Assembly: GCA_947427095.1 (NCBI GenBank)
Contig: CANEGO010000001.1
Location: 1-64,000 of the forward strand
DNA: 64,000 bases
Source of the DNA: an uncultured Clostridium sp.
GTDB taxonomy: Bacteria; Bacillota_I; Bacilli_A; RF39; UBA660
Direction of reading: 5' to 3'
Shown: piece by piece, positions 55,625-58,519 of the stretch
Layout of the letters: the number at the start of each line of letters is the position of its first letter
Position numbering within the stretch: the first letter of the stretch is position 1
Made by a program: the position numbers and the translations under genes
The notes under the pieces: model-generated
Databases searched by the model: none
What the model saw: only the letters and a program-made list of their open reading frames with translations
What the model was told of the DNA's origin: nothing

Positions 55625-55652
55625 TAAAAAAGAACCTATTTAAGATTCTTTA
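55625..55652 (-). terminator. intrinsic terminator between ORF 55650 and priA
   Basis: AAAGAATC-ttaaata-GGTTCTTTTTT. Confidence 0.65.
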
Positions 55653-56381
55653 TTTTGAAGGGGCTTGGGAAAATGTGAACTGTACTTTTAAAGTGTCCTT
55701 ATAATATGTTTTGTTGTTTCCGTTATCAAGTCCTTGTCCACTATCAGTTTCTTCTCTCCATTCTGCGCTAAAACGCATATACATACTTTCACCAGGCTGA
55801 AGAATAATTAAAGCATTTTCAGTATCTATGTATTTAGAAATTTCATCCGAAGATTTAAGATTAACCGAAATATTACCATTCGCATCCTCAAATCCTAAAA
55901 GTTCAAAATCCATAATACTATTATAATCAAGATTGTTTGTGCAATTAGAAAAGGTATCATCCTCAAAATTTCCTTCGCATCTTTCAATTGACCACTGAAT
56001 ACTTCCTTCTTCCGATTCCATACCAGGGTTAAATGATGCTGGTATAGAACCACTATTCGTTAATTTTACCGTATAATTTCTTGCTGCCAAAGGCTGGGTT
56101 AACTCCGCATTAAATGTCACTTCATTTCCATTAACCGTACAACTATCATTCTTGTAATGGTTGTCTTTTGTAATGGATGGACTTCCACTAAAAAAATAAT
56201 TATAACCTTCCATTGGAAAATCTTTTTGTATTCCAGGGGTACATGTCGTTGTTATATTAAAATCACCCTTAGCTGTTGCAGTACCATTTATTGTTAATGC
56301 CTCTGAAAATAATGCATAACCTACCATCATTGTTACCACAAGTGTTAATACTGCTATTATTACTTTTTTTTGCTTGTTCAT
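55650..56381 (-). CDS. secreted surface protein, camelysin/TasA-like character
   Basis: N-terminal signal MNKQKKVIIAVLTLVVTMMVGYALFSEALTINGTATAKGDFNI. Confidence 0.7.
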   Translation of the reverse strand: MNKQKKVIIAVLTLVVTMMVGYALFSEALTINGTATAKGDFNITTTCTPGIQKDFPMEGYNYFFSGSPSITKDNHYKNDSCTVNGNEVTFNAELTQPLAARNYTVKLTNSGSIPASFNPGMESEEGSIQWSIERCEGNFEDDTFSNCTNNLDYNSIMDFELLGFEDANGNISVNLKSSDEISKYIDTENALIILQPGESMYMRFSAEWREETDSGQGLDNGNNKTYYKDTLKVQFTFSQAPSK

Positions 56382-56421: not shown

Positions 56422-56451
56422 ATAATAACATACTACCCCCCCCCCGGTCAA
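56422..56451 (-). promoter_or_regulatory. promoter with G10 homopolymer in the spacer (TTGACC-G10-TAGTATGT-TATTAT)
   Basis: -35 at 56446-56451, C10/G10 at 56436-56445, -10 at 56422-56427, spacer 18 bp. Confidence 0.7.
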
Positions 56452-56595
56452 TTTTTTTAAAACGCTTGTGTAAAAGAAAAAAGCAGGGTAAATTTATTTA
56501 TTTAACAATTTTTTACGTGTTTTCTTTTCAACATAATAACATTGTTTTATCATTTTTACATATTTTTTATGAAACATTAGCTTTAAAGCTAACAC

Positions 56596-56638: not shown

Positions 56639-58519
56639 TTATTTTACCTCTCTTTTATTTCCAGTATAAGTCCATCCATTAATACTAGTTTGAGTAGACC
56701 ATTTATATTTTTGTTCACATGAAGTTTTATATATAGCTTCCGCGTTTTTAGTGCTACTTGTATTTACGGTTTTAACACAACTAGTACCATTTAAGATATA
56801 ACCACTATCACATGAGTAAGTTACCTTTTGGTTAGTAATCGTTTTAGTACATTTTTTACCATTTAATGTATATCCAGGATAATCCGCGCAAGAATAAGTA
56901 GTGTTTGAGTTAGTTTTAATACAATATAACTTGTCGCTAGTTTGAACAGTACCCTCTGGACAAGTACATACTTTAACCTTAGATTTAACCGTACACTTAG
57001 TACCATTTAAAGTATATGTTTTATTTGAAGTATTAGGCGGGCAAGAATACGTCGTAGTAGAACATTTTCCTCCACCAATTGAATTTGTTCCAGCAGGACA
57101 ACCATAAATATTTTTAGTACAATATCTTTCATCAGATGTTTTATTAGTTCCAGACGGACAAGAATATGTTACTCCAAGTGTTTTCGTACAAGTTTTTTTA
57201 GCTTCATCTAGTTTATAATCAGAACCATATTTAGAACAACTATAAGTAGTTTCTTGTTTTGTACAACTACTTCCTGCATCAGTATAGCCAGAAGGGCACT
57301 TAGTTGTTACAGTAGTTGCTTTTCTACATTTATCAGTTCCATATTTTTCATAACCTGGAAAAGCATCACACGAATAACTATATTCCGTAGCATCTTTTCT
57401 ATAACGGTAATATTTATAAATTTTTACAGTTGTAAAACAAGTATCACAAGTAAGTTCCTCCCACCAATCAACTAAAACTAGCTTTTCGTTATCATTTGTA
57501 AATGCTAAGTTACTTTGATCAGAAGTAAGTGTTGATACATAAGTCCATTTATAGCCAGAGGCAACTTTAGTTGCGTTTATAACATCGTAATTTTGAACTT
57601 TTATATAATCTGCCGTAACTGTTTTAACAGTACCAACAGCACCTTTTATATCATAAGTATATTTTTTATCAGCAGTAACTGTTTGAGTACCTTTAAATAC
57701 TTCATCAGTAACAGAACTTGATGGTGTAGCGTCAATGGTTGAGGTTAAAGTAGTTACTTTGCAACTTGCAGGCTCTTTTTTATCAGTTGTAGAAACTATT
57801 GGTTTCGCATCCTTAGTATCAGTTTCTGTTACGTTAGTAACGTTTTTATAAGCTTCTTTTGTAATCGTTTCAGAACCATTCTTAATACATTTATTACCAA
57901 CTAAATAATAGCCCGATGGACACACGTATTTATCAAATTTATCAGTACATACATTTTTAACAAACTGATATTCGTACAACTTACCACCATTTTTAGTGGT
58001 GGTTATCTTACCCTTAGTAGTAGTTTTATCAACCTTAGTGGTTGTTTCTAGCATCTTACACTCATTACTACAAATATCATAACATCCATAATGTTCAATT
58101 ATGTAATCTTTTTTATCAGTACAAGATAATTGCACCTTTATTATGTATTCGTTTTCTAACTTAGTTATTTGGACATAAGATGTATCTGCATCACAATAAT
58201 TACCATTTGAATCCATTAAAGGTAAAATAAGATGTTTATCAATCATTTCCTTTAATGTCATTTTTTTAGACGTATTAAAATCGCTTGGTAATCTTTCAAT
58301 TGTATAATAAGACTTTGCAGCGTCTTTCATCCTATCTAAATTATCTGCGAAAATCTGGTTATTTAATGGTTTTAAATCAGGCATTGGAAATAACCAAATT
58401 AATAAAAAGATAAAAATTATAATTAGTATTAGTCTAATTAGTAAATCTTTTACGGTCAAACCTCTTTTTTCTTCCATCAAAATTCCCCCTTTGTTTGAAT
58501 GGCTGTTATAATAGCACAA
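56639..58519 (-). CDS. membrane-anchored Cys-rich repeat protein (start probably internal, MEEKRGLTVKDLL)
   Basis: N-terminal TM; about ten modules like YSCPSGTNKTSDERYCTK, YSCADYPGYTLNGKKCTK, YSCDSGYILNGTSCVK. Confidence 0.8.
   Translation of the reverse strand: MCYYNSHSNKGGILMEEKRGLTVKDLLIRLILIIIFIFLLIWLFPMPDLKPLNNQIFADNLDRMKDAAKSYYTIERLPSDFNTSKKMTLKEMIDKHLILPLMDSNGNYCDADTSYVQITKLENEYIIKVQLSCTDKKDYIIEHYGCYDICSNECKMLETTTKVDKTTTKGKITTTKNGGKLYEYQFVKNVCTDKFDKYVCPSGYYLVGNKCIKNGSETITKEAYKNVTNVTETDTKDAKPIVSTTDKKEPASCKVTTLTSTIDATPSSSVTDEVFKGTQTVTADKKYTYDIKGAVGTVKTVTADYIKVQNYDVINATKVASGYKWTYVSTLTSDQSNLAFTNDNEKLVLVDWWEELTCDTCFTTVKIYKYYRYRKDATEYSYSCDAFPGYEKYGTDKCRKATTVTTKCPSGYTDAGSSCTKQETTYSCSKYGSDYKLDEAKKTCTKTLGVTYSCPSGTNKTSDERYCTKNIYGCPAGTNSIGGGKCSTTTYSCPPNTSNKTYTLNGTKCTVKSKVKVCTCPEGTVQTSDKLYCIKTNSNTTYSCADYPGYTLNGKKCTKTITNQKVTYSCDSGYILNGTSCVKTVNTSSTKNAEAIYKTSCEQKYKWSTQTSINGWTYTGNKREVK

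Follow-up and report, generated by a model that had tools for sequence, protein, structure and literature searches.

Poly-G promoter spacers probably switch surface-protein genes on and off in RF39-lineage bacteria

The window analysed here is a 64,000-nucleotide stretch with a G+C content of 34%, part of an assembly of 1,278,357 bases in 27 contigs. Its minus strand encodes, at 55650..56381, a 243-aa protein whose ATG at 56381 lies 40 nt past the TATTAT hexamer of the promoter. Reading 5' to 3' on the minus strand, this promoter comprises a -35 element, TTGACC (56446..56451), ten consecutive Gs on the coding strand (56436..56445), TAGTATGT (56435-56428), and TATTAT. The hexamer (56427-56422) and a TG at 56430-56429 together make up an extended -10 element, TGTTATTAT (56422..56430). 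Both elements were read from the sequence and by a promoter scanner, and TTGAC is common to all of the poly-G promoters described below; the homopolymer was identified in the sequence and in a count of G-runs over the whole assembly. The arrangement given in the original prediction, TTGACC-G10-TAGTATGT-TATTAT upstream of the 55650-56381 reading frame, is confirmed by the sequence at 56422-56451 (-), as is the uninterrupted homopolymer within the 18 bp spacer that separates the -35 from the -10 element. Additionally, a TTTTACACA box (56467..56475, minus strand) located 15 nt 5' of TTGACC fits TTWTNCACA, the DnaA-box consensus. The promoter scanner alone does not single out this site, since it reports 23 sites versus 18.3 expected; the site stands out because of the comparative evidence.

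The gene had also been described as terminator-bounded. The scanner reports no terminator at either gene end, but hairpins are visible in the sequence at both: an AT-rich hairpin followed by a T run at ~56625-56595, and a weaker one 3' of the gene. The adjoining gene (56639-58519, minus strand) encodes a 626-aa protein that is cysteine-rich and repetitive, has a hydrophobic helix at its N terminus and gives no match in a Pfam search; the spacer of its likely promoter, TTGACA-17-TATTAT (58536-58508), is ordinary and contains no G-tract.

Translation, a family profile and a predicted structure indicate that the 243-aa protein consists of an N-terminal hydrophobic helix followed by a beta-rich domain. 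What stands of the earlier description as a signal-peptide surface-like protein is that it is secreted or membrane-anchored by way of this helix. The protein matches no family in Pfam and none above cut-off in NCBIfam, and a PDB fold search with its medium-confidence model returned no match at E <= 0.001 and no TasA-like fold. The family shares a conserved short motif, GYALFSxTLTINGTATAKG, and related motifs occur in other proteins encoded downstream of poly-G promoters. Its profile has 18 genomic matches, of which some ten or eleven lie behind poly-G promoters; the remaining matches lack a tract, so that the tract goes with the dispersed copies and ordinary promoters with the clustered ones. 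Twenty aligned members of the surface family, taken from two genomes, all lie behind poly-G promoters. Some of the tract-less members are clustered with a gene for a SipW-like signal peptidase (TIGR02228, 93.9 bits; cut-off 51.85). One tract-less paralogue scores 15.3 bits against the SipW-type signal peptide model TIGR04088, under the cut-off of 19, and the window protein does not match this model. The family resembles the TasA/CalY-type proteins processed by SipW in that a single hydrophobic helix at the N terminus precedes a short motif (GYALFSxTLTINGTATA), but differs in that the window protein has no Pfam, NCBIfam or PDB match, and we do not claim membership.

Besides the G10 tract, the longest run of G or C in the window is 6. 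Across the assembly there are 23 G-runs of at least 7, with lengths of 9 to 16; none has a length of 7 or 8, which is not what chance would give. Twenty-two of the 23 lie on the gene strand directly 3' of TTGAC (0 to 4 nt) and 5' of a -10-like hexamer. The other, a G16 at the end of contig C2, lacks upstream context and could be an artefact of assembly. The window promoter is, judging by this shared architecture, one of about 22 putatively slippage-sensitive promoters that form a genome-wide regulon.

Tracts of this kind are present in 14 of the 18 genomes of the genus. There, 106 of 114 G-tracts of length 8 or more are in promoter position, the window's included; the other eight comprise one tract cut off at a contig end, the context-free end of C2, and six tracts located elsewhere. 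A reversed-pattern control yielded no matches in the 18 genomes, and in every poly-G promoter of the genus the coding strand carries G, never C. The architecture was found in 13 of the 59 genera of a family sample and, in an order sample, in 32 of 146 genomes and 19 of 75 genera, with the control positive in one genome only. In other genera the -10 sequences (TATAAT, TATCTT) and the flanks are different, and the block from TTGAC to the hexamer is often the same 28 nt, equivalent to a 16 bp spacer. Viral contigs gave 6 matches among 2.9 million, which serves mainly as a background rate. Three near-identical IMG/VR contigs (L164, L166 and L169) carry a phage-borne look-alike, TTTTCCACA ... TTGACA-G8-TGATTTTGG-TATTAT, in which the box lies ~20 nt 5' of the nearer TTGAC.

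These distributions bear on whether long G-runs could be products of assembly or of two-colour sequencing, an explanation that would suit the G16 run, with its missing upstream context, at the end of C2. Against it, the 22 tracts of the genome share both promoter context and strand orientation, and the architecture recurs about 106 times in the genus and again in independently assembled genomes of other genera. The probability that the tracts are artefacts is negligible, and for the window tract this reading is already refuted by the recurrence across genomes.

Promoters in which the tract follows TTGAC at a distance of no more than 2 nt form a class of 84, in which spacers were counted with TTGACN as the -35 hexamer. 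Their spacers are 16 (52 promoters), 17 (22), 15 (7), 18 (2) or 14 bp (1) in length. Tract length is anticorrelated with the remainder of the spacer (Spearman rho -0.52, P 4e-7, the P value being only indicative as the sequences are related), and the variance of spacer length is 0.45, versus 0.94 when tract lengths are shuffled, with 0 of 20,000 shuffles as low. Thus, the flank compensates for the tract, and the conserved quantity is the total spacing rather than the tract length. The 22 copies in the genome, the roughly 106 in the genus and this compensation give strong support to the original prediction that the site is a genuine promoter whose spacer is sensitive to slippage.

Within the window's own genome the spacers range from 15 to 20 bp. 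The window promoter, at 18 bp, has one of the two longest spacers in its class and departs from the 16-17 bp optimum; its closest relative, 5' of a paralogue at locus L016, has a G9 tract and a spacer of 16 bp. Ordinary promoters within the window, of which there are few examples, have spacers of 16 or 17 bp. A second class of poly-G promoters, with TTGACANNN before the tract, has spacers of 19-20 bp (for example L019, L029, L050, L060, L062 and L064) and, in several species, is kept 5' of orthologous genes for MGVxKNxVGRP membrane proteins.

The layout of the genus promoters extends beyond the tract: TTTTCCACA, 13-14 nt, TTGAC, G8-G11, TATATGATATTAT, and AAACAT. In 103 of the 105 promoters other than the window's, a TG is found one base 5' of the hexamer. 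The box TTWTNCACA, a string that serves as the DnaA-box consensus (PMC5835720 and others), is present in 78 of the 101 genus promoters with enough upstream sequence, and in 63 it lies 13-14 nt from TTGAC. Its position 5 varies (C/A/G), as does the same position of the DnaA-box consensus. The conserved upstream TTTTNCACA box is therefore DnaA-box-like, a candidate by consensus match. Furthermore, TTATCCACA or TTATCAACA occurs shortly 3' of seven promoters, versus ~0.3 expected.

A search for the composite of the TTTTCCACA box, TTGAC and TGNTATTAT, which did not require the Gs, found 67 matches in the genus, of which 59 have a pure tract of G8 or longer. In the other eight the spacer is shorter, interrupted or degenerate and mostly G-rich, and the five genus genomes without poly-G promoters contain no composite element. 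An equivalent search in the window's own genome gave five sites, all five with poly-G. Because composite matches track poly-G in this way, the box, tract and -10 element constitute one promoter type. Interrupted tracts (G3AAG5, G4AG6, G7AGG and others) are found in the composite promoter at G007:C1:22817, G008:C42:228, G014:C5:12424 and G017:C64:7332; it is possible that they are locked versions of a switch.

Such an association would also be expected if the G-tract were a fixed, strand-specific promoter element, either a structural spacer or a regulator site combined with the TTTTNCACA box, whose length changes only over evolutionary time. Besides the composite counts, this explanation draws on the occurrence of G on the coding strand without exception, on the near-uniform tract length within several genomes, and on the G-rich character that interrupted tracts retain (GGGAAGGGGG, GGAGGGG). 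A protein site, however, needs neither such purity nor lengths of 8 to 11, the compensating flanks show that it is total spacing and not tract length that is conserved, and one-G differences exist between copies whose flanks are identical. Moreover, a change of one G alters promoter geometry regardless of any other role of the tract. We regard a fixed element as unlikely, but as a serious alternative to switching. Slippage does not require a coding-strand G bias, and the tract may also have a structural or binding role.

Differences in tract length are seen between closely similar promoters. One genome contains a pair of promoters, one with G9 and the other with G10, whose 68 flanking nt are identical, and 4 of the 13 promoter pairs with at most two substitutions over the 68 flanking nt differ by one G. 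The contigs of the window's assembly provide a hint of variation at a single locus. Contig C26 shares an overlap of exactly 55 nt with C6 and another with C10, a length characteristic of a 55-mer assembly graph. The terminal 55-mer of C22, which bears a G11 tract, is contained in C10, which bears G10, and the two share 45 nt of the same downstream sequence. Most simply read, C22 and C10 represent one locus for which both G10 and G11 were present in the reads, although slippage during PCR or sequencing, or the collapse of repeats, might give rise to the same pattern.

Besides the strand bias, two observations stand against switching. Several genomes are near-uniform in tract length, as in genome G012, where most tracts are G9 with a spacer of 16; a freely switching set of promoters would not be expected to look like this, except where the ON state predominates and is the one captured in the assembly. 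The near-uniform G9 of G012 agrees with either such predominance or a fixed element. In addition, MutS (MutS_I domain) is encoded in 17 of the 18 genus genomes, and its presence should keep slippage rates low; the rates may therefore be moderate. Loss of mismatch repair as the driver of variation is rejected on the same count.

The genes 3' of the poly-G promoters mostly encode secreted-type proteins with one N-terminal hydrophobic helix, and these belong to paralogous families. By eye only, GNAT-like, von Willebrand-like and pilin-like sequences are also seen among the downstream genes. Poly-G promoters precede sigma-70-type genes as well. An orthologous long sigma-70 gene has such a promoter in three species (genomes G000, which is the window's own, G005 and G011) and adjoins dnaJ in two of them; G001 has another sigma-70 gene with a poly-G promoter, and near C1:109 kb such a promoter precedes a gene for a sigma-like protein longer than 1,200 aa. 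The G000 gene (L126:2037-4457, minus strand, contig C17) lies between dnaJ and a P-type ATPase gene and encodes an 806-aa sigma-70-family protein with a long C-terminal extension and its own G10 promoter. Its G011 orthologue (L127:2658-4922, minus strand) is split into two reading frames of 615 and 135 aa, for which a frameshift, decay or a second variable site are candidate explanations.

The poly-G promoters of the three orthologous genes and of the G001 gene raise the question of whether the long sigma-70 factor is a dedicated alternative sigma factor that reads poly-G promoters, its own included, and so sustains a self-reinforcing regulon. Its distribution does not agree with such a role. 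Genome G012 has about 30 poly-G promoters and no long sigma paralogue in our search, whereas G004 and G010 have a long sigma factor but no poly-G promoters; TTGAC and TGNTATTAT are, furthermore, ordinary housekeeping-type elements. Co-occurrence across the genus fails, and we rejected a dedicated sigma factor as the promoter reader, an explanation that we regard as highly improbable.

Given these observations, we consider it likely that the G10 tract serves as a spacer of variable length in an extended -10 promoter of the sigma-70 type, and that it belongs to a genome-wide regulon whose genes are switched one by one through slippage. During replication, slippage would add or remove single Gs and shift the -35/-10 spacing around the preferred 16-17 bp. 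Each shift would toggle a gene between strong and weak transcription independently of the others, an effect and an independence that we infer from promoter geometry. As most members of the regulon are secreted paralogues, the population would come to display a mixed surface repertoire, and through the few members that are sigma-70 factors the switch could be passed on to other genes. The promoters of the regulon are very probably phase-variable; the window promoter, with its 18 bp spacer, is predicted to be weak or OFF as assembled and to become stronger upon losing one or two Gs. RF39-lineage bacteria, by this reasoning, probably switch surface proteins on and off by miscopying G-runs.

A more speculative extension, which we think rather improbable, is a lineage-wide contingency regulon. 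The poly-G spacer and the DnaA-type box would together couple the stochastic switching of surface and sigma-factor genes to replication initiation or to the level of DnaA, and slippage in the single tract of a poly-G-controlled sigma factor would switch a whole secondary regulon. It is possible, given the shared box and the sigma factors under poly-G control, that slippage acts on top of a shared regulation.

The best-documented cases of multi-locus phase variation by simple repeats come from pathogens, a restriction that, according to a 2025 review, may reflect database bias, such that wider surveys would be informative (PMC11868660). In the uncultured, small-genome lineage described here, poly-G switching appears, from sequence alone, to be a main mode of surface-gene control, and the architecture is present in about a quarter of the order's genera sampled. 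In the open-access literature we found no papers joining RF39 with phase variation.

The precedent named in the original prediction holds: the porA promoter of Neisseria meningitidis has a poly-G tract in its -35/-10 spacer, and one G more or fewer alters transcription (PMC3899988). The poly-G tract occupies the same place in both systems; porA, however, is a single locus of a Gram-negative pathogen, whereas the present lineage, uncultured and with small genomes, has some 22 promoters per genome that share the tract together with a conserved upstream box and an extended -10 element. In Mycoplasma hyorhinis, every vlp gene has a poly-A tract in its promoter (PMC10502178). The likeness lies in a paralogous family of surface proteins in which each gene has its own homopolymer promoter switch; the vlp tracts differ in being poly-A and in serving a single lipoprotein family, whereas the poly-G promoter is shared by unrelated genes, including those for sigma factors. 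We know of no TTTTNCACA box in the vlp promoters. Thus, the class of mechanism is known from porA and vlp, and what look new are its scale in number of loci, the lineage in which it occurs, the conserved box and the sigma-factor targets.
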